The position numbers were made by a program, and so were the translations under genes. Of a stretch of 64,000 nt of DNA, positions 16,006 through 50,172 are shown one piece after another. Source of the DNA: Antedon mediterranea (taxonomy: Eukaryota > Echinodermata > Crinoidea > Comatulida > Antedonidae). Positions within the stretch are counted from its first letter, which is position 1, and each line of letters begins with the position of its first letter. Below the pieces are notes generated by a model, which saw only the letters and a program-made list of their open reading frames with translations, did not search any database and was not told the origin of the DNA. The stretch lies in the NCBI RefSeq assembly GCF_964355755.1, contig NC_092676.1, positions 7,670,288 to 7,734,287 on the forward strand. Direction: 5' to 3'.

Positions 16006-16986
16006 ATGATGTTTCGTGGAATAGTAAATATTAGCCGATTAGGCTTCAGAACTGTTAGGATTGGTCAGCCCATGTTAGAAGGTGGAGGAGGCATATGTTT
16101 ATCACCGGCGTTGCCGTTCGGGTCATCACCAGCAGGATTGTCAAGGAGTTGTAGGCAACCCAGAATGAGCCTAGCTTCAGCTAGAAAACTATGTACAAAA
16201 AGTGAAAAGGATGTTGATAAAGTAAAGGAAAATGAAGTTGCCGCAGATGGTAAGAACCCGAGTAAGTACACTCTTTCAAATAGTATTTGTCTTTTTATGT
16301 TTTAAGAGTGGTAAATATTAATTGCAGTCATTGAATATCATTGACATTAATCATTGATTAAAAAATTCTATCAGTTATCATAATTATACTTTTATATAGC
16401 AATTTATTGCACTACCTACAGTTACCGAATACAATTTTTTTTTTTTTTTAGTTTTAGAAGGTTTCCATTTACGAGCAACACGGCCGAACAAAGTGGATCG
16501 TTGGATATTGGTATTTATGGGACGCTACAAGTCAGATCAAGATATTCCGGATTTTGTATCGTAAGGTTTTTTTAACATTCAATATTTTTAACATTCTAAT
16601 TCCATATTCAATAAAATGCAGTAGGATTCAATTTTTCAACATCAGAATGTGATGTGCCCATATATGGATGATAATGTCATATCACTACCATATTTAGGCA
16701 CATCACACTTTCTTTGTCAAACTAGTCTGATAGTAGTGTAGACAGATCTTAAAACACTAATAACATTTGTCTTTTCTTTTATTTCAGAGACACCATTATC
16801 AACAGCACAAAGAATAAATTCAGAATAATAGTAAATATTGGCATGGGTGTTTTTGCGCTTCTTGGTGGTGTAGTAATGATTTACATCGGACGCAAACGAA
16901 TGCAAGCTGGAGAGAGCATCTCAGGAATGAACATAGAACGGCATAAAGCGTTCTACGATAAACAAAAAACAAGTGAAAACAGATGA
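16006..16986 (+). CDS. FAM162A: FAM162-family (UPF0389) mitochondrial membrane protein, 3 exons
   Basis: Exons 16006-16261, 16452-16560 and 16788-16986 give 187 residues. The first donor could instead be at 16250 (exon end 16249, same phase, four residues shorter). The N-terminal part is basic, Ser/Arg-rich and nearly free of acidic residues, as in a mitochondrial presequence. Exon 2 carries the family core NKVDRWILVFMGRYKSDQDI, which lines up with the vertebrate segment around WQKKILIWSGRFK. Exon 3 has STKNKFRIIVNIG, a single membrane helix (about residues 137-156) and the tail SISGMNIERHKAFY, matching the vertebrate LTSLNLEKKARLKEE region. FAM162A (HGTD-P) of mammals is a HIF-1-responsive mitochondrial protein linked to apoptosis; that role is not visible here. 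Two in-frame ATGs are adjacent (16006, 16009); a further upstream ATG at 15982 is possible but lacks similarity. A polyA signal AATAAA occurs at 17327. Vertebrate A and B paralogues cannot be distinguished. Confidence 0.88.
16638..16752. mobile_element. Partial MITE family A copy in FAM162 intron 2
   Basis: Starts inside the element (AATGTGATGTGCCC) and keeps the right end GATAGTAGTGTAGACAGATC. It ends 36 bases before FAM162 exon 3, that is, close to the branch-point region. Confidence 0.75.
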
Positions 16987-17439
16987 TTATAAGAATATGT
17001 AAGGCTAATTTCAAATGCAGTTTTTACAACTTGTGCGAAAAGCATTTCAAATTAATATAATGTAGGGTAATTAGTATTACAATGAATCAAAAACAGAATC
17101 TGATTTCAAAATGATGCTCAGTCTAAAACTTGGTCCCTGCTTGTGATTGGTCAACTATCTTGTATTGTGCCTACATTGTGCCTACATTGTGCCAACCAGG
17201 CGTTTAAAAAGTCTGGCAACATAACATCAAGATAAGCAACAAATTAAAACTGTTGTATTCAAAATAGTATACAGTACAGTAGTATGAAAAAGTGAGTTAA
17301 TAAGGGTGGGAGGTAACAGTATTACAAATAAATAACTGTAAGTAGAGATAATGACAGCTTCTAAGCTTTGTGAAAAAAATCATTTGGTATTTAAAATGTT
17401 AGGAAATTCTACAGTAAATTTTTGTAAATTGCATTGTAA

Positions 17440-17645
17440 AGCGTGGTTCCCACTAGCGACGCAACGCAAGGACGTAACGCAACGCAAGTGAATTGACCAA
17501 TCACAAGCGATGGCTTATTCGCTTGTGATTGCTAACTGTCTATAACTTTGCTTGTCATTGGTTAAACGCGTTCTAGTGGGAACCAAGCTTAACTAGCTTG
17601 CGTTGCGTTTACGTCCTTGCGTTACGTTCTAATGGGAACCAAGCT
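17440..17645. mobile_element. MITE family C (AGCGTGGTTCCCACTAG ends), TAA target duplication
   Basis: 206 bases, ends AGCGTGGTTCCCACTAG and AATGGGAACCAAGCT, with TAA on both sides (17437-17439, 17646-17648). The inside has inverted CGCAACGCAAGGACGTAACG-like stretches. Related copies at 32015-32362, 52041-52226 (rearranged), 52974-53045 (partial) and 57659-57767. Lies in the FAM162 3' region. Confidence 0.85.
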
Positions 17646-18250
17646 TAAGCAACAAACTATACAGACATATTTTAACGCACATGTGTGTATCCTTACTACC
17701 TGATTGGTTAATTTTGTATCACATGTTGATCGTCCAGTACTCCATTGCACGGTAAAAGTTCTATTCATTCTACTGCTTGTTCAGCTTTTTCTAAACATGT
17801 TGAGAATGTTGGGGTTTAGAATGAATGTTTTTGGATCCATTGAATGGGAGAATATTTTCATTCGTTGAAAAGCCAGACTGTCCTGTGCACCTCGTAAACA
17901 TTCATTATTTGTAATATCACATAAAGACATAAAATTATTATACTTAATATGCGAAATTGATAAAATAAAGTTTTCATTGTAGAGAATAACCAATGTCAAA
18001 TTATAAAAAAAGTTTTTTTTTTTAAATTATGAAATTGTTTTTGTTATCTAATAATGGTGCTGTATACCTACCTTTTCTGATAAATATTTTATAGCCAAAT
18101 ATAGTATATATTAATATAAATATATATCTCTAAAATGTGTGTGTAAATTAGAACATTAACAGCTGAAGTAGTTTGAATTGTAAACATGTTATCCATTGAA
18201 AATGGAACTTGAAATAAATGTTTGAAATCAAGAATGCATACCTTTCTTTT

Positions 18251-18520
18251 TTTACGGGCTTATGGGAGGGTAGGGCAACATTTACGGGCTTATGGGAGGG
18301 TAGGGCAACATTTACGGGCTTATGGGAGGGTAGGGCAACATTTACGGGCTTATGGGAGGGTAGGGCAACATTTACGGGCTTATGGGAGGGTAGGGCAACA
18401 TTTACGGGCTTATGGGAGGGTAGGGCAACATTTACGGGCTTATGGGAGGGTAGGGCAACATTTACGGGCTTATGGGAGGGTAGGGCAACATTTACGGGCT
18501 TATGGGAGGGTAGGGCAAAA
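18251..18520 (+). repeat. 30-bp minisatellite, 9 perfect copies, each a G-quadruplex motif
   Basis: Nine head-to-tail units of exactly 30 bases with no differences seen except in the last bases of copy 9. Each unit has GGGCTTATGGGAGGGTAGGG, four runs of three G with loops of 5, 1 and 2. Since 30 is a multiple of three, both strands stay open through the array; those frames are by-products and not genes. Confidence 0.97.
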
Positions 18521-18594
18521 TTTTGCCTTGTAACAGGAATTACAGGACCCTGTGTGGTCCTATCGGCTCCCTTTCTGAGTTTGTTACTTGTGGG

Positions 18595-18865
18595 CAGGAG
18601 GTGCAGATCGAGTGAGTGGCGGTTAAGACAGTGGAACTGTAATCCATAGCCATAACACCAGTAAGGGTTCAAGAATCACTTAGTCCATGGTTCTGGTGGT
18701 AGAACAAGTCTTCTTGGGTAAGGACTATAAACTGTAGGTCTAGTGTATATGCATATTGCTTGTGTGCACTTTAAGAACCTAGTACATCTTTCGAGACGAG
18801 TAGGAGGTTACCCCGGTGTACTAGTTCACACACTCAGCCACTGTCACTCACAGTCGCTTCTAGTA
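18595..18865 (+). mobile_element. tRNA-derived SINE, best preserved copy
   Basis: Box A-like TGGCGGTTAAGACAGTGG and box B-like GGGTTCAAGAATC, 45 bases apart, start the element. The body has CATGGTTCTGGTGGTAGAAC, GTCTTCTTGGGTAAGGAC and TACCCCGGTGTACTAGT. Shared with 27450-27790 (same strand) and 33690-34030 and 57975-58235 (other strand). Confidence 0.75.
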
Positions 18866-20514
18866 GGCCTACTAGTTGCAAAATCTTGTTGGACTCAATA
18901 GAAGAAGAAATACTGTGAGACGGTTGGGGTGATGTTTATACCTAATTCAGTAAAACAGACTGCTTGGTGTTAGAAACTTCCAGATCTTTGGTGTCCATCT
19001 CGTAACACAAGTCACAGCCTTCAACGTCTTCTGTGTTGCAATGTCTCAATCAAAATATCCCTAATTTAAAATTTTCACATTTTAATGAACGACAACTTGT
19101 ACAAAACATTCTAATTAACTTGTTTATTAGACTACCATACATATAGCTCGCACAGTTCACAAGAAAGGATTTTTACGCTTCACTGCCCCAATAAGCTTGT
19201 AGAATAATTACTTAATTAAAATTATCTAATAGTTAATACTAATTAGCAATTATTTAAACAAATAAACAACAAGTCATACTATTGTCAATATTATAGCCAA
19301 TAGTGCATTATAAACTGTTATACTACTGACTACTCATTGCCTAACAAATACCACAGTAAAAATGTTATGTATATTAATTCTTCAAACCCATGTATTATTT
19401 TTCAATATTGAACTAAAAAATAAAATTAACAAAACTTGGTAACGTTTGAAATAAAAGACTAAAGCAATCAGTAGACATATTTTATTAACATTTTTGGAAG
19501 CCATTAAATAATGAAAACACAACTATTTAAAAAATGTATTTCAACCTTAACAAAAAACAATTTAACTGGTTCCAAATAACGTTAACTAACAGTAAAGACA
19601 CCAAGAAAACATTTGCATAAACTGTCAGATCTCATCTTTTGAGATAAGTACGAATAAATGATGCAAATTGTTCACTTGGTGATTATTACTACAAGCATTA
19701 TCGGAGCAGTGAAGCGGAACGACCTAGAAAGTCTATTAGCAAATAGAATTATGTGCATGGCGTGTCTATCTTTGAATGTGCCGAATAAAACATGAATTGT
19801 ATCTGTTATGTCTGATGATACATGTTTCTGTCACAAGTCCTACCGTCACAATCCGAAACAACTCCTATTTTCACGACTTTCCGATTGCGCAACCATAATG
19901 CTAAAGACGACAAAGCAAGAAATCTTTACAATCATCTATGCATGTCTACAAACAACACTTTCACAGAGATTTCACGTTAAGTTTGTAGAAACATGCGCAG
20001 AAAATAGCAATAGGTATGTCATGCTTCATTGCCTTTTGAATTTCATCACGCAGTCAAAAAGTCTCCTACCAAAATGGAAACGCTTTCCACTTTTTACTGT
20101 CCACTTTTTCAACATTAAAAAAAACCTTGATCAAAAAAAATACAACAAGGTCCAAAAAACAACTTTTTTTTCTTCATATTCTTAAAAATAAAATAATTTG
20201 ATAATTTTTGCTTAATTTTTTTCTAATAATTGCAAATTGGAATGGTTACCAAAACTGTACTTCTGTTTTCGTTTTCTTTGATTCACAATAAATAAAATAT
20301 TTTAACAAAATAACATGCTGCGGCTTTAAAAAAAATTTAGTTTTAAATGAGAAGCACCAAGAAAATATTTAATAAAAGTATATAATCTTTTTAATTAATA
20401 ATAATAATAATTTTTTGACAAATTCAAGGTAAGGCATATTAAAAACAGGGTTCCAGTTTTTGTTTTAGTAAATTATTACAGTATATAATGATATACAAAA
20501 CATTTGTTCTAAAT

Positions 20515-20613
20515 GAACAACAAAAGAGTAAGGCCAAGTTCACACTAGAACAACAAAAGAGTAAGGCCAAGTTCACACTAGAACAACAAAAGAGTAAGGC
20601 CAAGTTCACACTA
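20515..20613 (+). repeat. 33-bp direct repeat, 3 copies
   Basis: AACAACAAAAGAGTAAGGCC followed by AAGTTCACACTAG is repeated three times with a 33-base period and no visible difference. Confidence 0.95.
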
Positions 20614-23600
20614 GAGGACTGTAATCTAGATTGGGAGCTACCATTAGCCTAACCGATTGCAGCCTACGTGAGAACGCTCTATACGTCAACTAAATTATCA
20701 AATGTTTACAGTAAACAAAAGTATGTTGTAAATATAGGATAATAATTGTATATATAATATTTTTTGTTTATATTTAGTTCTTTGAAACAACAAAGGCTAT
20801 AAAAAAGTAATTTAATTTTGACAGGGATAAAATTCTAAACAGCAGTGATATACTAGAAATTTAATGGATATGATAAGGATGAAATTTTCCTTTTGCGAGA
20901 AAACTGGAACCCTAATAATCTAGGTAAATATTACTGGGGAAAAAAAAGTAGAGATCAAACGAGAGGCTTTGGCAAATAAAAAGAATGATTTAAAAAATCT
21001 ACTGTCTGACTGAAATAGAAACAGAAAAATGAGATTTGTTGGGAAATTCCCAGAAGCGCACATGAGATTCTAGATTTGAGTAGTGCTTATTATTAATGTG
21101 AGCTAGTTATTAAGAGCAAGGTCAAGAGTAAGGTCAGGAGAAGGTCACAAGTAAGGTCAAAGTTTAATGTGAGCTAGTTATTAAGAGCATTATTTGACCA
21201 AATCAACAGATGTATGCCGAATGAACATAGCAACAGGTAATGAAACCGATGAGTAAGGTCAAGAGAAGGTCAAAAGTAAGGTCAAAGTTTAATGTTAGTA
21301 TGATGTTCAACAAACTCATACAATTAATAAGTTGGTGGTGGGGACACCATTCAGACAGTAAAACATAAGAATTTAATATTCGATTTTTTAAATAATTTTA
21401 AACCTAATTTGACATCTAAAACCCTGAGATGAGAGAATATGACAATACACAACACATGGATATCTAACAATAACAACTAAAAGCATTCAATCACAAATTT
21501 TGATTTAAAAACAACTATGTAAAACAACTACCATAAATATATTTGCTTTTTGATTTAATACCAACATAGTAAATATTCTAATTTTGTTTATTTTATTAAA
21601 ACAGGTTTGTTTTATCCTGTCAATTATATTAATTGAAATAAATTGCATATATAGCCAATTAACTTACTGTCCCACTGATATTTTTTTGATAAATATTTAC
21701 CTTTTTGAAATTTAAGATAAACAGAAGTAGTAGTAGAATTAGAATTGTAACATTCACATTTCAAGAAGAAAATTTTAGTTTAAAAATAATTTTTTCGAAA
21801 AATGGGAACAAAAAATTCTTCTATGAATTGCACAGCCGATTTAATTAAAAGTAAAATTTTTTTCATTTTACCCAAGAGATTTTGACACAAGAAAATACTG
21901 TTATTATTATATATCATACAATTTCATATTAAATATTTTTCTGAAGATAAATGGATGGAAGTTTCTGTTACCTGAATTGAATACCAAATTCTTTTCCCCC
22001 TCATTACTGTAAAGTTATTATCAATGCTTTTAGAATAAAACTTATTCACACTATAACATCGTTTTCGGTTTTTTACTAAAATCAAACTGGAAATGAGAAC
22101 AAATTTGATACATCTAAAAATGTCATGTAGAATTCCCAGAAAGTGCGGACGAGATTCAATAGTGGAGTTTGATTCTAGAAAATTAAACATTTTTTAAAGA
22201 ATATTGCTAAGCAACAGTAAATAGTTTGAAGAAGTAATTTTGAAAATACGTCTGATAAATATCATTTATTTTCAGATTTTTAAAAATGTAACAATTTTAT
22301 CTATAGACACTGTACCTAACAATAAAACAAAAGTCGTTTTAAGTACTAACAATAATAATAATTATGTTTCTTTGGATTTAGCCGCCCATTCCACAATTTC
22401 TCGATTCATAATGGTAATGTTTAAAACAAATAAAAATCTTGGTTTGTACACAAAAAAAAAGAATTTTTTACATTGCTAATTTCTTAATGTTTCACTTTTT
22501 GAACATACATTTATTGCATAGTATGCTGTTAATCAATTTGGATATATCTTTATTTTTTTTCCTGACAAATATACTTGAAAATCAATTATACCCAATCAGA
22601 AATTCTGAAAATACGAGATTGGAAGAACACTCTAAAAACACACACACACACACACATACTCAAAAAATCCTAGTCATATCGTCAACGTCATATTTTATGC
22701 ACAAAACTGTTTTTTTAATGTTAATAAAAATGTGTAATCTTGAAAAACATGAATATTTTATGTATTGCTCTGAAATATATACTGTCTGCCGTGAAACTAA
22801 GAATAAAGAACATTATTTCAATCATAAGGAATTAATTATTAAAAATTTCTATTTCAATCAATTATTAATTTCGTTAATAACTTTTTTTAACGCAACTCCG
22901 CACCCCACTTTTTTTTAAACAGCTGCCAACCAATCAGATGCTGAATCTCAAATTCAAAAAAATTATGGTAAAAATGGTCAATTTTATAAAACTAAACATA
23001 ACATTTTTAATACTTACTTAAACAAAACTTACATTTTTTTTGGCAAGGTGGTCAAAGAAAGAATTATAAAAAAGCAACTATCGAAAACCAAGATTGTTGA
23101 ATTACTCAGTTTCAAGTAAATTTAAAGGTACAATTAAAAACTAATAAGACAATTTAATTAAGGTACTGTACTTCTATTTGAAATGTTGAAGGACAAAATG
23201 AGACAATATTCTAGGAATTGTATATCTCTTTGTTGTATGTAGTCTAACAGCTGAGATTACATAACAATCCAAGATAATGGGAAGGTACTCAACATATTTT
23301 AATTTATTCGTAAAAAAATGTAATTGTTCTAAAAACGAACTAAATATTAACAACTTTAAATTGTTCGTTTCTATTTCATACCAGACAGTATATTTTGAGG
23401 GAAAAAACGGTTTTTTTGCTGATGTACAATCTTTATTATGTTTATGTTATATAATAAATATGTTTTGTTTTTGTTTATTATGTTTGTTTGTTTGTGTCTG
23501 TCTGTATATACATGTTTATATTTACATTTGTTTGTTTTGTAAAAATATAATCTTTGCTTCTTTTTATGACAAATATTATGTTCAGCACTATGGTAAAGTT

Positions 23601-24761
23601 TTTGACATTTTTATAAATTGATTAATTAATATTCTGTTTTGTATTTCTAACACTATAATATATGTCAACAATGTATATTTGGTTGATGCTGTGTATTTAT
23701 TTATAATAACATGTGACTGAAGTACATTTGCATACATGTGTAAAGAGGTTATTTTATATAGTAAAAAAGTAAACTTAAATAATTAAAATATCCAACATCT
23801 ATTTCAATGTGACATGTCCCTACAAAAAACAAGGAGATTTTCGATTGCTAATAATGATAAATAATGTATTACACAGTAATGTGTAAAGGTTTGTATCGCG
23901 AGTAATAGTGTGTTCCCAGCAAATTCAAAATCAAGAATGTCTTAGTTATGCTACACTTGCCAAACCGATATGTTCCATTTTTGCTTTAATACTTGCAATT
24001 TTAATATTACATTTTTATATTGGTCAATTCAGCTTTTCTCCGGAAAACGGTTGTAGAATAACTTGACATAATTAGATTTTGTACAAAACAAAAACCTGTA
24101 ATATCAGGTATGATAATTATTAAATCTGTTAATAAATGTATTGAATTGAGGACTTGTTAAAATGCAACAAAGCCGATTGTGTTCAATTTGTATTCTGAAA
24201 ATAAATCATTGGTAAATTGAAATGAAATTAACCCTTCCCCACCGCTCCCCTCCCCCAGGTTGTAGGAACATGTCTTTAAATGTAAAACATTAACACCAAT
24301 GAACACTAGAACCCATACAATAGTTCTGTAAACGAACAAAAAAAACATCACTACAAACCTTATCTACAAATGTAAAGCCAGTCAAAACAAGAGGTATTCA
24401 GATTAAGTCATGACAATTGACTCGTGTAGTCTAATCATTTTAATCACCGTGATAACACCATTGATGCATATACACGTCAATAATCAAACTGTGCATGAAT
24501 ATGGTGCTATGCAAGAATTAGTACAACAAGTTTTAAAGTTCCAATACTTTCAACAAAGGTAGCTGATTGGTCAGATTGAATGTACATCAAATTTTTTAAG
24601 ATAAAAAGTGAAGAAACATGGATTAGTGAAGGATTTTGCCAAATTTAATTTTTGCATGAAACAACAAACAATAAAAGTCACATGATGCATCTGAATTCCT
24701 TATGTGTAGGCTAATGCAATGAAAATAAGACAACATGTACTATCTACTACTTAGACTCTGT

Positions 24762-24880
24762 CCAGACTGCTGAATGTTTCCATATATGGAAATGGTATTA
24801 CCAAATATGGTAGTGATATTACCTTATATGAAAATGGTATTGCCATATATGGCCATAACAGTTTATTTCAGGCCTGGACA
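24762..24880. mobile_element. Diverged relative of MITE family A
   Basis: GACTCTGTCCAGACTG at the left and GCCTGGACAGTTTT at the right frame an interior with CCATATATGG twice and CCAAATATGG once. The ends and the centre recall MITE A but are clearly different. Confidence 0.5.
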
Positions 24881-27055
24881 GTTTTTTAAAGATTGATACA
24901 ATAGCAGCTCTTTGCTGTAAAATTACAGTTCAGTGTAATAACAATAACTTCGCAAAATTTTTTTGAAATCAGACAAATTGTTGAATATTTTTTCCTAGTC
25001 ATGGAATAATTAATATAGAATTTTTTCCTAGAATTTCCACAATTTAGTAATCTGTAATTTACACCACGTTTAAACAAACTTTACATTTATCTACAATGCA
25101 ACACAAACTGAGAATGAATGATATTATTTGAAATATCTGAATTGCAATCTGTTTTATCCCCTTTTTTGTTTTTTTTTAAATATTTTTTTTATATTTGAGT
25201 TTAGTATTGTTTTCTACATCGTAAGAATTTCTTTAAGATGTTTTTTGGCAAAGAGCAAGATGGATACAACAATCACATAAAGAGAGAGAATACTAATGGG
25301 GTGGGGGGGGGGGGCACTTTCAGGCCTCAATAAGTGTCCGCTTAATAGGGGTGTCCGACAGGAGGTGTTCTACTACTATTCACCATAACAACAAAAATCA
25401 TATGTTTGTGTCATTTACAGAAACAAGTTAAAGTTAAAATTAGGAAAAAATCTTGCATGATACTGGTAATTTAAAAAGTACTGTATATTATTCTGTCATT
25501 TTAAATAATTTCTTTTCTATTATTTAATAGGAAAATTGTTTTAATAAACTAAACAGAAAAACCATGCAATTAATATATGCAGTTCTTCTCTTAATACTAT
25601 GTACTATAACTCATGCAAAATAATATTTAAAGTTCTATTTTTCTAAGAATAATTGTTATTATCTTGATGTTATGGCGTTTGGCCATTTTATAGTGCTGAG
25701 CACACATTAGTAATTTTTACATCCTACCCTAGTATGTACACAAAACAACAGAATATAGCAAAGTTAACCTTTGAACCGTAATATAACTTTGAAGGATAAA
25801 AAATAAACATGTTAATTTTATTTAAAACTATAACACATTAACTTTAAAACATAGACAGGCCTTGAAACCAATGTGAGCCCTTGACAAATTTAATAAATAT
25901 TTTCTTTTTATGAAAAAATTAGTTTTCATAGAACAATTTTTTAACACATTATCTGCAAATTACAATATAAATTTTTCTCTTCTAATTTAGAAAAATGTTT
26001 GGAAAACAAAGTTGAATTTGATTTTGGATCAAAAATTCTTGTTAACATAATTTAATATCATAATTTGAACTTGATTATGTAACGTATATGAACAAATCTT
26101 TAACCATAAATTGACAAAAGCAGCTCAAATAATTTTTATTTTTAATTTAGTATTAAAAAGATACATTTAATTTATGAACTGTAATGTTCAAATTACACTG
26201 TGTTTGAAGATAATACAGTTTGGTATGTTATTCTAAAAGCCAATTTAAACTTTGAAAAACCAATTCTGTTTTTTCTGTCCCCACAATTGGCACCATGTGA
26301 TGAGTATTTATTTGGTGGGAAAAGTTGGAATAAAAGTGACAAATTTACTCATTTTTTTAAAACAATATTTGAAAAACTTTACCATGATGATAAAATAAAT
26401 CGTTTTACACAGATAATAATATACTCATAATTGAATTGAAATTTGGTTAAGATTCTAATCTAATTTCTCTATAATCTTTAGTATTTAATAGCATATAAAT
26501 TCAAAGTAAAATACTGTAATAATATGACAACAATTTTAGTAACATAATATATATATGGCAATGGTTGGTATTAATTTTATGGATAAATTTTGTTTTAAAT
26601 TTTGCACATTTTTTAATTTTTTTTATGAGCTAAAAATAAACAATAAATCCATAATGGAAAGACAATAAACTAAATGTTCTAATTAAAATCAATTTCGAAA
26701 CATTGTAACCATAGGAACAGAAACATTTACATAATTTTGTATTGAACGCAAAAAAAAACATAAATTTAAAGTTTAAAAAAAACTAATTTGTTGTATTTTA
26801 TATATATATATTGCTGTTTAAAGAAGGTGAAAACCATGTGTGGATGAGTAAAAAAATATATTTATCAGTTCCATAACTGATAAAAACACTGTTATGGTGG
26901 ACAGACGGGTATGTTAGTGTAGCTAAAAATAGAAAAAAAATCATGTTTGTTTTTTCCGCAAAACACCTACATTTATTCTACTTACAGTGTTAGTTTGCCT
27001 ACCAATTTTCTTTTCTCGTTACAATTTTGATCCATGTTGTATATGGTGGCGCTCT

Positions 27056-36000: not shown

Positions 36001-39000
36001 TGGTGAAATACAATTGAAATATTAGAGAGTTTTGCTATGAATCCGATAAGGAAAACAGCCGTCACACACATATTCATTCTTATAAGCACAGTAAAAATCT
36101 GTTTCGTATAGTAACGAAAAATTGAGTGCGCCGTCCATTTGAACGAAGCGTAGGTACGTGTTGCTTGGCTGCCTTGGCCTAGCGTAACATCAAAGCGAGT
36201 GAGGGCTTTAAATAAAAAGTCTATAAATAATTATATTATAATCATAAATCATTCCTGATTCAATGCAAATGTGCAAAATAGATAAAAAACTATACTCGTT
36301 TTGTAGTCACGAATATGACATGTGATATTCGTCAAAACACGAATACGGTTTACGAAAATGTAATGGGGATCAGCTCAAAAGTTTCACAAATGTGTGACAT
36401 TTTCGGTATCATATTCGTAGCGTGCGAAACCTCCCTATTATTATATTTACAGGATAACAAAATTATAAAATGTTGGCATAGAAAAGTCTGATTCCACTAT
36501 TTTTAAATGATCTGTTCCTTGTTCTGCTTATCCAGTCTTATCAGGTTAAAGGTTTACATTTCATACTAAACAATAAAATTTTAAACCCCGGAGCTACTAC
36601 TTAAAGTTTTGTCTACACTATCAAACTAGTTTGACAAAATAAAGTGTAATGTGCCCAAATATGGTAGTCATACTGTATGCCCAAATATAGTAGTAGATAT
36701 GACATCAGCATGTCCATATATGGGCACATCACATTTCTTTGTCACATAAAGTTTGATAGTGTAGACAGAACTTAACATTTTGTTCAAATGCCTACAAGCT
36801 CACCAACCTTTTGACAGTAGTTTTCGGAATTTCTGTGTTGCTTTTAACTGTAGTTCCTGGTTTTCAGACATAATGTCGGACACCATTTCTGCTGTTATTG
36901 TTGGCTGTTGACATAAATACATTATATATTATATTAAATATACGGATCAATAATCATTATTAAATGTGCATACTGTACATATAATATTTAAATGCATCAA
37001 TTCATAAAATGAATGACTATTCACCTAATAGTATTATTGCAAGTCATGATAAAGCCATAAATGGAATTTTCAAAAAGGCTTATAATATTGTAGGATGGCC
37101 TGTACACATACGGATAATGCACAATATTCAAAAATGTGTTTGTGGGAGATGATGTGTGTATGAGGAGTGTAGGAGATGTTGGGGTGTAGAAGATGATGTG
37201 TGTAGGAGATGAGGGTGTGTAGGAGATGAGGGTGTGTAGGAGATGAGGGTGTGTAGGAGATGAGGGGTGTAGGAGATGAGGGGTGTAGGAGATGAGGGGT
37301 GTAGGAGAGAGGGGTGTAGGAGATGAGGGATGTAGGAGATGAGGGATGTAGGAGATGAGGGATGTAGGAGATGAAGGGATGTAGGAGATGAAGGGGTGTA
37401 GGAGATGAGGGGTGTAGGAGATGAGGGGTGTAGGAGATGAAGGGGTGTAGGAGATGAGGGGTGTAGGAGATGAGGGGTGTAGGAGAGAGGGGTGTAGGAG
37501 AGAGGGGTGTAGGAGATGAGGGATGTAGGAGATGAGGGATGTAGGAGATGAAGGGGTGTAGGAGATGAGGGGTGTAGGAGATGAGGAGTGTAGGAGATGA
37601 GGAGTGTAGGAGATGAGGGATGTTGGAGATGAAGGGTGTGTAGGAGATGAAGTGTGTAGGAGATGAGGGATGTTGGAGATGAAGGGTGTGGGAGATGAGG
37701 GGGTGTAGGAGATGAAGTGTGTAGGAGATGAGGGATGTTGGAGATGAAGGGTGTGTAGGAGATGAAGTGTGTAGGAGATGAGGGATGTTGGAGATGAAGG
37801 GTGTGGGAGATGAGGGGTGTAGGAGATGAGGTTTAAAAGATGGTGGGTGTAGAGGATAAGGGTGTAGGAGATGAGGGATGTAGATAATAAGGGGTTAGAG
37901 AATAAGGGGTGTAGAGAATGAGGGGTGTAGGAGATGAGGTTTAAAAGATGGTGGGTGTAGAGGATAAGGGTGTAGGAGATGAGGGATGTAGATAATAAGG
38001 GGTGTAGAGAATGAGGGGTGTAGAGAATGAGGGGTGTAGGAGATGAGGGGTGTAGGAGATGAGGTTTAAAAGATGGTGGGTGTAGAGGATAAGGGTGTAG
38101 GAGATGAGGGATGTAGATAATAAGGGGTGTAGAGAATGAGGGGTGTAGGAGATGAGGGGTGTAGGAGATGAGGGGTGTAGGAGATGAGGGGTGTAGGAGA
38201 TGAGGGGTGTAGGAGATGAGGGGTGTAGAGGATGATGAGTGTAGAGAATAAGGGGTGTAGAGAATGAGGGGTGTAGGAGATGAGGGGTGTAGGAGATGAG
38301 GGGTGTAGGAGATGAGGGGTGTAGAGGATGATGAGTGTAGAGAATAAGGGGTGTAGGAGATGAGGGGTGTAGGAGATGAGGGGTGTAGGGGATGGGGGAT
38401 GGGGGATGTAGGGGATGAGGGGTGTAGGGGATGAGGGGTGTAGGAGATGAAGGGTGTAGGAGATGAGGGGCATAAGAGATGAGGGACATTGGAGATGAGG
38501 GGTGTAGAAGAGGAGGGATGTAGTTGAAAGGTGTAGAAGATTATGGTGTAGGAGATGAGGGGTGTATGAGATGAGGTGTGCAGAGAATGAGGGGTGTAGA
38601 TGATGAGGGGTGTAGGAGATAAGGGATAAAGGAGATAAGGGATGTAGGAGATGAGGGATAAAGATTAGGGATGTAGAAGATTAGGGGTGTAGAAGATTAG
38701 GGATGTAGGAGATGAGGGGATATAAGAGATGAGAGGGTGTAGGAGATGAGGAGGGTGTAGGAGATGAGGGGGATGTAGGAGATGAGGGATATAAGAGATT
38801 AGGGGTGTAGGAGATTATGCTACAACTGTTTCTTATTGCATAATCAATTTACTTACTGCTGAAGAAGTAGATATAATGGGATCTTGTATAAACATTTCAT
38901 CTTGGTCTGTCACATTTCTCCTTTTAAACAACTGTATAGAAAAAAGAAAAAAATCAATCTTTAATTTTGAAAAGTGGTATTTGAAAACAATCCAGACTGT

Positions 39001-40974: not shown

Positions 40975-41065
40975 GTTTTTTGTTTGTATTCTGAAGTAGC
41001 CTATAGAAAGAGTTCAAGATTTAAATCAAATCATTCTTCTATCAATAACTATGATGTGCGAATTG

Positions 41066-41156
41066 CACTATCTGCACTATCTGCACTATTTGCACTATCT
41101 GCACTATTTGCACTATCTGCACTATTTGCACTATCTGCACTATTTGCACTATCTGC
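41066..41156 (+). repeat. 9-bp tandem repeat near the importin-alpha 5' end
   Basis: About ten copies of GCACTATCT / GCACTATTT alternate, in effect an 18-base unit. It lies some 70-160 bases upstream of the first coding exon, within a presumed 5'UTR intron (acceptor at 41001-41002). Confidence 0.93.
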
Positions 41157-41401
41157 ACAATTTTAACACAATTATTTCATTCAAATACTTTTTCAATAAA
41201 TATAACATACTGTACAGTAATCAAGGCATACTGTTATAAAAATAATAAGTTCATATACTGGACTGCCTGCCAATGGCCAATTAAATACGTGGCGGACCAG
41301 TTAAATTGTAAAAAAACAAGTCTGCCAGTTAAAATGTCAGTAAAATCTGACGAAATATCAATAATTTTACTCAATTCACCTCGTCATGATTTCTTTAAAG
41401 A

Positions 41402-41919
41402 TACCGTAAAACCTCGAAAAGAAGCCCATGGGCTTCTTTTTTTAGTGCTCTTGGGTGGGCTTCTTTTCGAGATGGGCTTCTTTTCGAGATGGGCTTCTTT
41501 TCGAGATGGGCTTCTTTTCGAGATGGGCTTCTTTTCGAGAGTACTTTTGCAAACTGTAGAGGGGGGCTTCTTTTCGAAATGAATGCTGTAAATTTTGTGA
41601 ATTTCTACTACAATAATGTGACTTTTGAGACATTTTTTCAACCATGAAATTATGTTTAATATACCAATTAAAAAACAATATAAAAAGCCAAAAAACAGTC
41701 CTATGATTCACCGTCAAATACAATAATTTCGTCATCATCTCAATACAGTATGAGTAGTCTATCTCGAAATGAAGCCCATACTATCTTTAAAAGAAGCCCA
41801 GGGGGCTTCATTTCGAGATGGGCTTCTTTTCGAGAGTACTTTTGCAAACTGTAGAGAGGGGCTTCTTTTCGAGATGGGCTTCTTTTCGAGGTTTAAGCTC
41901 TTTTCGAAGTTTTACGGTA
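41402..41919. mobile_element. TIR element (TACCGTAAAACCTCGAAAAG ends) with 17-bp internal minisatellites
   Basis: Left TACCGTAAAACCTCGAAAAG and right CTTTTCGAAGTTTTACGGTA are inverted repeats with one mismatch. Inside, GATGGGCTTCTTTTCGA is repeated about five times (41455-41540) and again near 41812-41890. The unit equals the inverted subterminal sequence of the element itself. Confidence 0.85.
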
Positions 41920-42159
41920 TTTCACACCTGGACTATAATCAAGATCCATTTTCTATAAATACCTCATTTTTAGTTTTTTAAAGTTAATGTTCAGTTACAA
42001 ACAGTATCTTGGTTGTTAATTGAAGGCCTCCCTATTAGGCCTATATTCTGTGACCAGTAAAAGGAGTGGAGGACGAGTAAAAATGTAATATTAATAATCT
42101 ACTCGTCTAGTTTGAAAAAAACCTTAATGGAGTCCCTGATTATTTAGTATGTAATACTA

Positions 42160-45100
42160 TTGGAGTGGCGCTGTGCAACACGGCGACACAGCTCGTCTCA
42201 TTGTCTCTATTGTTACTCATTTTTTGACGTTATTTTCGTATATTTGGACTGTATTGTATTGTGGAAGAAGTCATTTGATTTATACATTATGTTGTATGTG
42301 AAAGTTTTGAAATTTCTGTATTTTTTGCTGATATTTTGGCTGTTCTTACTGTGTGGATTGAGTAAGTCGGGCGGTGGAATTGCGTACACGTCATCTGATT
42401 TGCATTCCATGGGCGAGAGGTCGACCTCACCGCTACCGGCACACGTTGAATTACCATCTGAGATACAACGTCACAGGCTTCGGAAAAGGGGCAAGGCTGG
42501 TGGGGTCAGAAAGCGACTACAACGAAGGAAATGTAAGCCTTTTATACCATCTTTAATATTTGGAAATGTAAGATCTTTGAATAACAAAGTCGATTTACTC
42601 AGAGCAAACGTCGAACACTTCAGCGATTTTAGGAATGCCAGCTTACTTGCATTCACGGAAACCCACCTGAGCGATAAGCATAGCGATCAACATATTCAAG
42701 TAGTTGGCTTTAAATCTGTTCGTGGGGATCGTACAGCCGAAGCGAACAAAGATGGCGGTGGTGGTCTTTGCCTCTACATTAATGAGAAATACTGTCATCC
42801 AAATAACTCTACGCTTAAGCTTCATAAATGTTCGCCACACTCGGAAGTGCTGGTTGTTGGTATTCGCCCCTACTATCTTCCGAGAGAGTTCTCGCATGTT
42901 ATCAATGTTATGGTATACATACCTAACAAAAAGCTTGAAAAGCCTGCTATAAATGAGATCGCAGAAATTATCGAAGGTATTGAGTGTAGTCACCCTGAGG
43001 CGCTTGTAATTATCAATGGCGATTTCAACAGATGCAAGCTCAAGAAAACAACGGCCACTTATTATCAGCATGTTACATGTAAAACGAGGGACAACGCGAT
43101 TCTTGATTTATGCTACTCTAGTGTGAAGGATGCCTATATTTCGACCCCACTACCGAACTTGGGCAAATCTGATCATAATTTGATTTTACTCAGTCCTAAA
43201 TATCGCCCGTTAAATAAGACATGCCAACCAAAAATTATTAATGTACGTAAATGGTCTCCTGAAGCCGAGGAAGCCCTGATAGCGGAATTTGAATCTACCG
43301 ATTGGGATATTTTTACGGAGGATGAAGATTTGAATAGTATTACTTATGCAGTGAGCTCGTACATAAACTTTTGTATTGATAAATGCGTTCCAGTTAAAAA
43401 AGTGAAAATCTACCCTAACAACAAGCCATGGATCACGAAAGGCGTTAAATTACTGTTGTGTGAGAAACGTAAAGCCTTTAAGATGGGCGACTCTAATCGT
43501 ATGAAAATATTGACTAGAGAGATTAAATCTGAAATAATGAAACTTATGAGCTGCTGGGCCGGATAGAATCCCACCACGAGTACTTAAGGTCTGCTCTCCT
43601 CACCTTGATGGTATATTTACATTTATTTTCAATATGTGTCTTTCTTATCATGCGTTCCCGGATATTTGGAAACTTTCATGCATAATACCGGTACCTAAGA
43701 AACCTAAGATTAACAGCATGAATGATTTGAGACCCGTTGCACTCACGTCTGTCGCGATGAAAATATTGGAACGTATTATTTTAAAAATTATGCAACCTTA
43801 TGCTGAAAAAGTGTTAGACCCGTTGCAATTTGCTTACCGATCACTCCGTAGTACCAGTGATGCGATTTATTTTAAATTACATAAATTGTATTCACATCTA
43901 GATAATGTAAAGAAAGGCCACTCGGCACGTATTATGTATTTTGATTTTCAATCTGCGTTTAATACCATACAACCCCATATCTTAGCAGACAAAATGTTGA
44001 ATATGGAGTTGGGCAAATCTGATCATAATTTGATTTTACTCAGTCCTAAATATCGCCCGTTAAATAAGACATGCCAACCAAAAATTATTAATGTACGTAA
44101 ATGGTCTCCTGAAGCCGAGGAAGCCCTGATAGCGGAATTTGAATCTACCGATTGGGATATTTTTACGGAGGATGAAGATTTGAATAGTATTACTTATGCA
44201 GTGAGCTCGTACATAAACTTTTGTATTGATAAATGCGTTCCAGTTAAAAAAGTGAAAATCTACCCTAACAACAAGCCATGGATCACGAAAGGCGTTAAAT
44301 TACTGTTGTGTGAGAAACGTAAAGCCTTTAAGATGGGCGACTCTAATCGTATGAAAATATTGACTAGAGAGATTAAATCTGAAATAATGAAACAGAAGAA
44401 CATTTATAGGAAAAAAGTTGAACATAACTTCAGGTCTAATAATATGAAACAAGTTTGGCAGGGTATGAAACTTATGAGTGGTTACACAAACGGTGGTAAT
44501 ACACCCACCTCGATTCCGAATTTTACTGTGCAATATGTTAATGAGTTAAATGAATTTTATAACCGTTTTAATGTTCATGATTTTAAAAAAGAAAGAGAGG
44601 CTCTATTTAGCTTGTGTCGGGTGACTGAAGATGATCCCAAATTTAGTATAAGCATTTCTGATGTACATAACGAATTCATGAAACTCAATTCATCGAAGGC
44701 TGCTGGGCCGGATAGAATCCCACCACGAGTACTTAAGGTCTGCTCTCCTCACCTTGATGGTATATTTACATTTATTTTCAATATGTGTCTTTCTTATCAT
44801 GCGTTCCCGGATATTTGGAAACTTTCATGCATAATACCGGTACCTAAGAAACCTAAGATTAACAGCATGAATGATTTGAGACCCGTTGCACTCACGTCTG
44901 TCGCGATGAAAATATTGGAACGTATTATTTTAAAAATTATGCAACCTTATGCTGAAAAAGTGTTAGACCCGTTGCAATTTGCTTACCGATCACTCCGTAG
45001 TACCAGTGATGCGATTTATTTTAAATTACATAAATTGTATTCACATCTAGATAATGTAAAGAAAGGCCACTCGGCACGTATTATGTATTTTGATTTTCAA

Positions 45101-46190
45101 TCTGCGTTTAATACCATACAACCCCATATCTTAGCAGACAAAATGTTGAATATGGAGTTTCCCCGTCCGATTGTTCGTTTAGTTATAAATTTCATTTGTG
45201 ATAGAAAACAATTTGTTAATATTAATGGTGTTAAGTCAGAAATCGTAACCTCTGACATCGGTGTTCCTCAGGGTACTGTCAACGCACCTAAATTATATTC
45301 CTTGTATACGGCGGATTACAGATCTTTAAATGATGAGCTTTGCCCCGTTGTTAAATTCGCTGATGACACTAGTACTATTGGTCTCATAGTTTCAAACAAT
45401 GATGAAAATTATCGTAGCGAAATACAAAGATTTGTTAAATTTTGTGACGATAATTATCTCCAAATAAATGCATCAAAAACAAAGGAGATGATCATTGATT
45501 TTAGGACTAAACATAAATTTAATTTTCAACCAATCACTATCAAAGGTAAAGAAATTGAAATTGTTGACCAGTACAAGTATCTAGGAATTGTTTTCAATGA
45601 TAAACTGAGTTGGGGAGACCATATAGACTTCATCAGCAAAAAATTAAGTCCCAGAATGTATTGTATGAGAACTTTATATAAATTTAACTCCTGTGATTTG
45701 ATGTTACTTTCGTTCTATAGATCCGTTATATGTAGTGTTTGGACGTATTGCCTCTCCTGTTGGGCTGGTAATGTTACCGGAGGGAATAAAGGACGCCTTG
45801 AAACTTTCATCCGTCGGGCTGGTAAAATGATTGGTCTGGAACTGCCTTCCTTTACCGATGTGCACCTAGAACACCTCCAGAAAGATTTCGAACGCATTGA
45901 GTCGGATGCCTCTCATCCTCTCCACAAAGTGATCATAGACCAACTTAATCCAAGTGGTAGATTGAGGCTCCTCAGTGTGAAAACAAATCGATTTGCTAAA
46001 TCCTTTATTCCCTCCGGTATCATCCAGTACAACAGGAAGTCAAGAAGATAATTTTATATTGTAATTTTTTAGATGTTTTTATATGAATGGTTTTATGCTA
46101 TATTTGTTTTTATAGTGTTTTCTTTGTTATTATGACGAGCAATGAATTTCCTTTTTGAGGATCAATTAAAGTTATCTTATCTTATCTTAT
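42160..46190 (+). mobile_element. Non-LTR retrotransposon (CR1/L2/Rex1-like LINE) with internal tandem duplication
   Basis: An APE endonuclease and a reverse transcriptase are encoded on the plus strand, followed by a 3' end with TTATC repeats (46174-46190). Endonuclease motifs: FGNVRSLNNKVD (from about 42556), TETHL, INGDFN and SDHNLI. RT motifs: PVPKKPKINSMNDLRPVALT, FDFQSAFNTIQP (motif A), GVPQGT, and FADD (45357) as catalytic box. A block at 43159-44008 is repeated at 44009-45157; the first copy lacks two pieces of 78 and 221 bases found in the second. The losses shift the frame, so the protein is split into an open frame at 42160-43566 (468 residues, endonuclease) and one at 43634-46051 (805 residues, RT with part of the block twice). 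The remaining duplicated sequence looks identical, so the event is young. The clade is inferred from the motif style and tail. The upstream limit is uncertain. Confidence 0.9.
43159..45157 (+). repeat. Direct duplication inside the LINE (850 and 1149 bases)
   Basis: Copy 1 is 43159-44008, copy 2 is 44009-45157. Both begin TTGGGCAAATCTGATC and end AATATGGAG. Copy 1 lacks the equivalents of 44394-44471 (78 bases, flanked by the repeated word ATGAAAC) and 44479-44699 (221 bases). No other difference was seen by eye. The first deletion is at a microhomology, which suits template jumping during reverse transcription or a replication slip. Confidence 0.9.
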
Positions 46191-47237
46191 AATTTGGATT
46201 TTATAAATTGAAAAGATATCATAATTATGTTTAGTCACTGAGATGAACAAGATTGGACCATTGTACTTTATCTAAAAAAAATTAGACTGCACAGCTAGCT
46301 ATTATCGTAATTTAAATCTGTGTGCGCATAAGAATACCAACTTTGACAGCTCTATTTTAGGCTCGATTGTTGTAGCGTACATTTTAGCGAACCTACACTG
46401 TACAGAAATACTCCTTTGTGTTCCACAGGGCATTTATTCCGTTGTGCCTAACACTGGACAGTTAGTATTTTTTATATGAATATTATTATTAGAGCAATTT
46501 CCTTTACACTTCTTCTATTAACCTTTAATTAAATGATTAGCTTTTTAATACATTGCTTTGTGTGCATGCACCTGCACTGCACTTATCCTTGATATCAAAA
46601 TTAAAGTTGGTTATTATACTCTCCTTGAATTACTACAACGTCATACAAAAAGAAGAAAATAAAACCACAGGACCATGTGAAAAGCATTAAAAAACGAACC
46701 ACAAACAAATGGTATTAAAAAACAAAGAAAACACAGACAATAAACAATATCTATGTTATGGAATTAAATAATTACATGCGAAATACATGCGATTGATATC
46801 GCTGTTGGCCATTTTTGTATGCCGGCCATTGCCAATTTTGTAACAATAGTGTTTCTATTTAGCCAGGCACCTGCATAGTCTCTGCCCAACCTTGTGATTG
46901 ATTTAATGTACTATTCCAGACAAACCTACATGGTCTTATATTATATTACTGGGGTTATTTACTACAGTTAGCCAACTGAGCTAATTAGCCTAAGTTTACA
47001 GTAGATCAAAACATAAGCTTTTTTTAGGGATACCTTACTTTGTTGGGTCCTGAAGGTATTCTCTAAACAGTCTACTAAAATTGTTCATTATTAGGAAAAT
47101 TATAAAAAGAGATTTTGATTTTTAAAGGTGGGTTCATATTAAAGCCTGCTTCTCAAATGTATGCATTGCAAGGACATAAGGCAAGGCAAATTACTTTTGG
47201 TGATCAGTCATTTTGCATTTTGCTCAAGTGGGATTGT
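46191..47237. other. Intergenic, nothing recognised
   Basis: AT-rich sequence between the LINE and the duplicated MIX23 exon. No open frame with family similarity, no tandem array. Confidence 0.5.
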
Positions 47238-47399
47238 TTCAAGTATTGTGGTAATGTTTATTGTTTTTAACCTTAATAATATGCAGGATGCCTTGAAAGT
47301 TGTTCGCATGATAGATGACAAAATTATATATGCACTAAATACATCAGTACCAACCACCTCATTTAAAGGACAGGTGAATGCTACAGAAAATGTATGAAT
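47238..47399 (+). pseudogene. Extra, truncated copy of MIX23 exon 2 with intron flank, upstream of the gene
   Basis: This stretch repeats 49047-49200 almost base for base: the end of MIX23 intron 1, the acceptor TGCAG and exon 2 as far as the NATE codons, with one substitution seen (AAA for AAG). It then lacks about 21 bases and resumes at the intron start (GTATGAAT). It lies about 1.2 kb before MIX23 exon 1, so it cannot be a cassette of the normal transcript unless an upstream promoter exists. Intronic sequence in the copy shows a DNA-level duplication, not a retrocopy. The near-identity indicates a recent event. Confidence 0.85.
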
Positions 47400-48566
47400 G
47401 AATTATAGGTCAACATTTGCATTTAAACATAATACAGTATAACCCACACTAAAAAATACTGCAGAACATCTTTATTTTGCATATGGACTATGGTGTATAA
47501 ATTCTGTGTCAGGAAAATAACCGCTACATTATTTTTGCTTGATGTTAGTGGAGTGGAAAAAAAATTATTAAAGAAAAGGCATTAGTAATTCTAATTTATG
47601 ATGTTTGATTCTTTTTTAAAAATCCATTAAATCAAAAATGCTTCTAAACTAAGATGAACAACTGCAATTTATCATTTTACAAATTGCAATATTTCATCAT
47701 CATAAAACACTACATAATTAATAGAATACTAATAATTATACATAATCTGAAATCAGCAATTTGGGAAGTCACACACAACGAACAAGTCTCATCTAAAAAT
47801 ATGATTATGTCATGATAATTGAATATTTCATAATTAAAATGTATTACAGTATTGTGCAATGAAAATAACCATATGCCTATATCCTGAACAAAAAAAACAC
47901 CGTTTCATTTTGTTTGTAAGACAAAAAAATTAGTAAGGCCTAGAGTTGAATCCCACACAAACCACCATTGAACACGAGGAGAAGGTTCAACTTGAATGAA
48001 GGCTGTCTTGTCCGCTGCTAGTTAGTGGGTTTCACCATACTATCATCGTTTTTGATTGATGATGGGTTACGTGAACATCTCAACTTTAGCGGCGATTTTA
48101 CGATTTTCCAGAGATCAAAGACAATTTACACTTAACATTTTAAGTTCTAGAGAGATTGAAGAGTATTATTGTATATTCTAAATGGAAATAATGTAACAAA
48201 ATACTTACTTTAAACAAGAAATTAATTAAATCTTATGAGGGAAACCCCTTCTCTCCTTCCGCAACATGCGCAATGCAATTGAGCAGGCGCAGTAGAATTT
48301 CCATAGTGAGCCCTCTCTTGTTACGTAATTTACAATACATTCAGACTCTACCATTTTCTATGGTTCCCACGTGAAATTGGTAGAATTAAATACTTAATGT
48401 ATCTAAATAAGTAGATGCATACATAATAACATTTCCAAATACAGAAATTGTTATCTCGTTATTTATAGAATAAAATGTAATTTTAGGCCATTTTACTGTA
48501 TCACCTCTTGAAGTAACATACCCAACCGGTCAATCTAAATAGACGCGCCCGTCATCATAATCCAAC

Positions 48567-50172
48567 ATGGCAGCTTCCATGGATAATGTGTCTTGCGGAG
48601 ATTTCGCTCATTTCCAGGTCTGTTTACAGCTTAATGGCTTTTCTAAGTCATTTCTGTATAATAATTATTTTTCTGAACACTTTATGTAAGCTTGATTAGC
48701 AACATAAATTTGTTAGGCCTACTTTTTATTATCCACACTGACATGTGTATGACTATGTCTATATGAATGATGATGATGATATAGCCTAGGCCTCCACCAG
48801 TAGTAGTAGTATCCCACAAAAAGAAAGATGTCCACTCAGAAGTCAAGAAGGGCTTGACCGTCAAAGAGTTAGACTAGAGTGGCCGGTTTGAACTTTTGTG
48901 TCCTAGAAGTTTTTGGTAGGTCTAGCCTCTAGGCCCCAGTTTAGGCCTACTAATGATTAACCTGTATCCATTTTTACTATACATAATTACATACTAGGCC
49001 TATCTACTGTATTTAGTAATAATACCTCATCTATTGTTTCATTTACTTCAAGTATTGTGGTAATGTTTATTGTTTTTAACCTTAATAATATGCAGGATGC
49101 CTTGAAAGTTGTTCGCATGATAGATGACAAGATTATATATGCACTAAATACATCAGTACCAACCACCTCATTTAAAGGACAGGTGAATGCTACAGAAAAA
49201 TGTAAACAATTATATGAAGAGGTATGAATCTAAAGTTGGTAATTGACAGCGATTAAAAACGTTTATTAATTTATTTTATTAATTTATGATGTAAAATGTC
49301 AGAGGAGAGAGGAAAGTTTTTTTTATATGTATATATATTGCACTGTACCAATAAAAATCAGATACTGTAGATAGATATCAGAACCTTAAAGTAAAGTATT
49401 CCAACATTTGATTTCTTTGTGTGAATTATTTTAGTTGATGAGTGCATATGACACTAGAGATAAAGCCATCAAACGTTGCATTAAGGAAGTCTCAGGCAAA
49501 ACGAATGATCTACGATCGGCCAGAGACAAGTCTCCAGATGATTTCTATGTCATTAAAGATCTTCGAAAAGAACAAACTAAGGTAAAATAGACCAGAAACC
49601 CCAGTGAAAGATGCCTTCTGGATTTTGTTCTTGGTCCAACTACTGTAGATACAGCAAGGTTATTTACTACAGTCAGAGTTGAGAATAGAAGAAGTTATTA
49701 AAGATAGGTCTTTATTTTTGTAACTGCCGTTTTACTTCAGTACATTGTCATTTTTAATTTCAGTTACGTTTACTACAGTCTGAATTGAGTATCGAAGAAG
49801 TTGTTAAAGATAGGTCACTGAAGGCAAGTACATTTTAGGCTTAGGCCCATATGCTTTTAAGAGAAGTTTGCACTGATAAAATGTATCTATCTCAATCTCT
49901 ACACTATTAAACTAGTTAGGCAAAAAGTTTGATATGCGCAAATATGGTAGTGATGTGACATCATCGTGTCCATATATGAGCACATCACATTTTTTGTTGC
50001 ATAATGTTGGATAGTTTAGACAGAGCTTTACTAAAAAAAATACCATTGTACGAGTGCCTTTTCCTAGTACACATGCTCCATATTTGTAGACAATGGCTTT
50101 TATTTTTCACAGGTATTTCACGAGCGCTGTCGTGGTCATTACATCCCTCCAAGACAGAAAGACACCTTATGA
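48567..50172 (+). CDS. MIX23: MIX23 (CCDC58), mitochondrial intermembrane-space protein, 5 exons
   Basis: Exons 48567-48617, 49096-49221, 49435-49581, 49764-49823 and 50113-50172 give 147 residues (human MIX23 is 144). Matches to the family run the whole length: [56 protein letters not shown] and [13 protein letters not shown]. The four family cysteines are kept at residues 10, 53, 74 and 134, in line with import by the Mia40 disulfide relay known for MIX23. The middle is a charged helical, coiled-coil-like region. Intron 4 starts with GC instead of GT (AAG/GCAAGT at 49821-49829); the translated join SLK-VFHERC matches the vertebrate protein only if this site is used. Two broken extra exons lie nearby: a copy of exon 2 upstream of the gene and one of exon 4 inside intron 3. 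Confidence 0.93.
49659..49710 (+). pseudogene. Decayed duplicate of MIX23 exon 4 inside intron 3
   Basis: The segment aligns with real exon 4 (49764-49816): TTTACTACAGTC, GTTGAG, GAAGAAGTT and AAAGATAGGTC are shared in order, about 105 bases apart. A 2-base deletion and several substitutions break the frame, and TAG appears within the GAATAG word. It is therefore a relic of a tandem exon duplication and not a usable alternative exon. Confidence 0.75.
49895..50027. mobile_element. Worn MITE family A copy in MIX23 intron 4
   Basis: AATCTCTACACTATTAAACT at the left and GTTTAGACAGAGCTT at the right with ATATGGTAGTGATGTGACAT between. It sits within the GC-AG intron, ending about 85 bases before exon 5. 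Confidence 0.7.

Follow-up and report, generated by a model that had tools for sequence, protein, structure and literature searches.

The FAM162, importin-alpha and MIX23 genes of the crinoid Antedon mediterranea: a gene block that probably goes back to the last ancestor shared by ambulacrarians and vertebrates

Genes for a FAM162 protein, an importin-alpha and MIX23 (CCDC58) lie side by side in a window of 64,000 nucleotides of the crinoid Antedon mediterranea (positions 7670288-7734287 of the 30.5-Mb chromosome C7; the genome has 354 Mb and its assembly is made up of 11 chromosome-scale contigs and 7 small contigs), and the same three families are neighbours in human 3q21. A first reading made from the sequence alone had explained this correspondence by common descent of the block, and the question raised by the locus is whether this explanation holds against a chance encounter, a later joining of the genes or an artefact.

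Identification of the genes was carried out by tblastn with human FAM162A, KPNA1 and MIX23 proteins and by Pfam searches, and for the majority of splice junctions the sequence and the reading frame were inspected by eye. The FAM162 orthologue (DUF1075 family) is located at 16006-16986 on the plus strand, with three coding exons (about 16006-16250, 16475-16561 and 16786-16986), and it matched PF06388 (DUF1075) at 1.2e-21 with 77.6 bits against a cut-off of 25. Its identity to human FAM162A is only 28% of 133 aligned residues, and the case for orthology is therefore built on the protein family, the single copy and the position of the gene. The importin-alpha gene is full length, its coding exons span 40971-27054 on the minus strand, and it displays the complete importin-alpha architecture in Pfam, which consists of the IBB domain (PF01749, 9.7e-24), Arm repeats (2e-91) and a C-terminal Arm_3; 72% of 528 aligned residues are identical to human KPNA1. 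One short exon (38931-38857, minus strand) is flanked by proper splice sites, and the protein assembled for the searches carried about 4-5 surplus residues (VSKQQ) at the junction after it, which did not affect the result. Inside a KPNA intron, at 37160-38815, a 16-bp unit is repeated in tandem about 103 times; the GC skew is 0.5 over 4 kb, and this extreme strand asymmetry produces long minus-strand open frames that are not genes.

The MIX23 orthologue, found by tblastn, Pfam and its splice sites, occupies 48567-50172 on the plus strand in five coding exons (48567-48617, about 49096-49221, 49435-49581, about 49764-49823 and about 50113-50172), with a match to PF09774 at 4.8e-17 (63.3 bits, cut-off 25) and identity to the human protein at 55% of 144 aligned residues. 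When the MIX23 Pfam profile was run against the whole genome it gave no match, since the coding sequence is divided among short exons, and the protein query did find it. A MIX23 exon is doubled (49663-49710 and 49769-49816, 106 bp apart, 89.6% identity). Of these copies the first lacks a clear donor, and the second seems to have a GC donor (GC-AG intron).

FAM162 and MIX23 are single-copy genes, with no match elsewhere in the 354-Mb genome. Three importin-alpha genes are present, and that of the window is the only one of the KPNA1/5/6 type. Its best PDB matches were importin alpha-7 (KPNA6, 760 bits) and alpha-5 (KPNA1, 741 bits), versus 503 bits for alpha-3 and no more than about 480 bits for the KPNA2 type, and this gap in bit score decides the class by sequence. 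The assignment to KPNA1/5/6 proposed earlier was therefore right, and the gene neighbourhood that had been offered in its support is not needed for it. The two other importin-alpha genes, each classified from one exon, are nearest to the KPNA2 type (C7, 1.456 Mb) and to alpha-3 (KPNA3/4; C5, 21.77 Mb). As judged from these sequences, FAM162, the KPNA1/5/6 importin and MIX23 are each represented by one gene, as would be expected of the state that preceded vertebrate duplication, and because all three are unduplicated the genome is useful as a reference.

The tblastn exons and Pfam families bear out that the three genes are consecutive. From their strands, FAM162 (+) and KPNA (-) are convergent, and KPNA and MIX23 (+) are divergent. 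The stop codons of FAM162 and KPNA are 10.1 kb apart; the gap contains tandem repeats with units of 30 bp and 33 bp, and no coding exon in it scored or had a Pfam match. The start codons of KPNA and MIX23 are 7.6 kb apart, a distance measured on the coding exons. Between them there is a plus-strand non-LTR retrotransposon (42148-46051; RVT_1 at 7.6e-42 and a weak Exo_endo_phos_2) and, at 47238-47394 on the plus strand, an incomplete second copy of MIX23 exon 2 and of the flank that precedes it, detected by self-BLAST and translation. No further host gene was found between the three genes within the window, and with no other host coding sequence in the gaps they are consecutive as far as these tests show. 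The reverse-transcriptase frame of the retrotransposon (43550-46051) bears an in-frame internal duplication, in which the segment starting AAGPDRIPPRVLK is present twice.

The exon 2 duplicate is recent (158-bp match, 98.7% identity to 49047-49204) and lies 1.8 kb upstream of the true exon; it is not a second MIX23 gene, being a truncated copy that runs into a stop. A fragment duplicated so near its source could also speak for an artefact of assembly or annotation, that is, a misjoin or retrocopies placed together. However, FAM162, KPNA and MIX23 all have introns, so they are not retrocopies, and the genes occupy a single 34-kb stretch of a chromosome-scale contig of 30.5 Mb, with zero N in the 184 kb around them. 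The artefact has a negligible probability and is in practice refuted.

In vertebrates, the families are found together at two paralogous loci. WDR5B is flanked directly by FAM162A and KPNA1, in an order kept in 40 vertebrates, and WDR5B itself is confined to eutherian mammals (PMC11275010), so that its absence from the crinoid block was rightly expected. The mouse gene order is Fam162a-Ccdc58-Csta, and a 95-kb deletion in this species removes the first exon of Fam162a, the whole Ccdc58 (MIX23), Csta and Stfa2l1 (PMC2759285); the extent of the deletion places Ccdc58 on the 5' side of Fam162a. For the other locus, gene lists of human (PMC4754774), of cattle (PMC5070821) and of chicken (PMC8130382) place KPNA5 next to FAM162B. 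FAM162 thus stands beside a KPNA gene at both vertebrate loci, which makes the pair older than the vertebrate genome duplications independently of the window. The series at 3q21 (KPNA1, FAM162A, MIX23, CSTA, CASR), set against KPNA5-FAM162B-GPRC6A, suggests that vertebrate FAM162 lay on the CASR/GPRC6A side.

The MIX23-FAM162A-(WDR5B)-KPNA1 locus of human 3q21.1 and mouse 16B3 resembles the window in that the three families are contiguous, FAM162 and KPNA are convergent, and MIX23 adjoins the pair and is divergent from the gene next to it, FAM162A in mammals and KPNA in the window. It differs in that the pair is turned round with respect to MIX23, WDR5B is absent and the flanks are others (a TGFBRAP1/VPS39-type gene and an ammonium transporter). 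The human order with strands is MIX23← FAM162→ ←KPNA1, and on the minus strand the window reads MIX23← KPNA→ ←FAM162. The KPNA5-FAM162B locus of human 6q22, chicken chromosome 3 and cattle chromosome 9, near GPRC6A and RFX6, likewise has a KPNA1/5/6-type gene adjoining FAM162, in the same convergent orientation, but it is without MIX23; its flanking genes ZUP1, GPRC6A and RFX6 were not found near the window.

The probability that three points placed at random all lie within 34.2 kb was calculated as 2.8e-8 over the whole genome and 3.8e-6 (4.75e-6 by simulation) on a 30.5-Mb chromosome, so that 0.0006 to 0.08 such triplets would be expected among 20,000 human triplets, values that gene clustering would raise somewhat. 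In a rival reading, the genes would have been on a shared ancestral chromosome and intrachromosomal shuffling would have joined them secondarily in the crinoid lineage, independently of vertebrates. Chromosome C7 does carry single-copy HGD (6.28 Mb) and UMPS (15.68 Mb), with a chance probability of 0.007 for both, and their human counterparts lie at 3q13.33 and 3q21.2. These two genes suggest that C7 shares macrosynteny with human 3q13-q21, which lifts the odds of coincidence over the whole-genome null. Markers of the 6q22 side were not on C7, as the RSPH4A-type gene was found on C10, ASF1 on C6 and the DFRP_C gene on C2. A search for CASR/GPRC6A-like genes detected class C receptors on C7, the nearest more than 5 Mb from the block, with ambiguous orthology.

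The wider neighbourhood is also compatible with shuffling. Within the surrounding 184 kb, nothing beyond the triad matched the human 3q21 or 6q22 neighbourhoods. Identifiable neighbours are the TGFBRAP1/VPS39-type gene, the ammonium transporter, PEBP, UPF0489 (C5orf22-like), NOP9 and a thiolase (ACAT1-like), and reading of the sequence added a HYR-domain gene and a probable LDLRAP1-like PTB gene without Pfam match. Their human counterparts come from different chromosomes, which means that local gene order is scrambled apart from the triad, and the triad is conspicuous by contrast. Such scrambling, together with the different order relative to MIX23, speaks for a secondary joining; against it, the probability is about 4e-6 even within one chromosome, the orientation of FAM162 and KPNA is the same in both lineages, and the pair is adjacent at KPNA5-FAM162B too. 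A secondary joining is accordingly considered very unlikely. The HYR-like gene is a large one on the minus strand, with many HYR-domain-like exons (window coordinates of about -36000 to -11400) and a protein-kinase open frame inside it on the opposite strand. At window coordinates 119325-122501, about 3.2 kb of a 45-bp tandem repeat keep two forward frames open (VHPVGADHWGPITR repeated), probably a minisatellite.

Common descent is then the best reading, as first proposed, given that the triad is contiguous in human and mouse, KPNA5 and FAM162B are adjacent, convergence is kept and HGD and UMPS are on C7. We assign a probability of roughly 0.87 to FAM162-KPNA-MIX23 being a microsyntenic block that ambulacrarians and vertebrates have kept from their common ancestor, which lived over half a billion years ago. 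Its stable core would be the convergent FAM162→ ←KPNA pair, surviving in the window and at both vertebrate paralogous loci, with MIX23 beside it in both lineages. Where the earlier reading spoke of one or more local rearrangements, the number can be narrowed to exactly one: either FAM162 and KPNA were inverted together or, to the same effect, MIX23 moved. Inverting the two genes as one segment interconverts the human and window orders and keeps the pair convergent, and it is this event that would separate the two arrangements. In the definition of PMC8851819, a microsyntenic block includes at least three orthologous genes; by Pfam and similarity there are three here, with no further host gene found between them in the window and WDR5B alone between human FAM162A and KPNA1. 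A literature search, supplementary tables being outside its scope, found no earlier description of the triad in an invertebrate.

Deeply conserved microsynteny is a well-known phenomenon, and the triad is a new example of it, useful and not surprising. As in the deuterostome and bilaterian cases already described (the pharyngeal gene cluster, xrn2-nkx2 and pax1/9-slc25a21; PMC11175523, PMC8851819), non-paralogous neighbours have been kept for more than 500 million years and strict collinearity is not required. Unlike them, the triad includes no developmental regulator, and hence a long-range enhancer is not an evident explanation of why it was retained. The likeliest cause that can be inferred is inertia, a slow decay of gene order in which small rearrangements would be slow to break every ancestral adjacency, and the block would need no special function.

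Selection could also hold the block, for instance through a shared regulatory domain that spans the KPNA introns or through co-expression of MIX23 and FAM162, and this would be compatible with common descent. The functions had been called unrelated at first, which is correct only in part, as MIX23 and FAM162 are both mitochondrial proteins, and this leaves room for a functional reason. In mouse, MIX23 and FAM162A both have broad expression (PMC2759285), the gene next to MIX23 is divergent from it in mammals as well as in the window, and gene-dense bilaterian microsyntenies have been linked with co-expression in general reports (PMC8851819). By contrast, convergent pairs are generally the least conserved class, and conserved ones show no enrichment in shared function (PMC2871058); moreover, MIX23 and FAM162 are not adjacent in the window. 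The divergent KPNA and MIX23 start codons, 7.6 kb apart and with a retrotransposon between them, are beyond the limit of about 1 kb used for bidirectional promoters, and with gaps of 7.6-10 kb that contain repeats and a retrotransposon no bidirectional promoter is evident. Maintenance by selection is for these reasons regarded as less likely than inertia, of which it is still a serious rival. A stronger proposal, that FAM162→ ←KPNA (with MIX23) is of bilaterian or even eumetazoan age and is actively kept together by a regulatory or chromatin domain common to its genes, appears more doubtful still; if true, that domain would link a nuclear-import factor with two mitochondrial genes, despite the low conservation of convergent pairs.

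With inheritance of the block as the preferred explanation, an adjacency taken from vertebrate gene maps would now be dated to at least the deuterostome ancestor, and the window would provide the outgroup arrangement for the vertebrate copies KPNA1-FAM162A and KPNA5-FAM162B, as well as a clean one-inversion case for studies of gene-order decay. The known functions of FAM162, KPNA and MIX23 are unchanged by this finding.

Elsewhere in the genome, an intact Hox cluster was observed at C2:7827797-8206135, with 12 genes (Hox1-Hox8, Hox9/10 and three Hox11/13 types, 11/13a-c), one of them inverted. The names were assigned by reading of the homeodomains, and the complement looks ambulacrarian; the 11 chromosomes may in addition point to a crinoid. 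A search for COX1, aimed at the mitochondrial code, gave no match. The ParaHox genes are together near C5:29.97-30.07 Mb.
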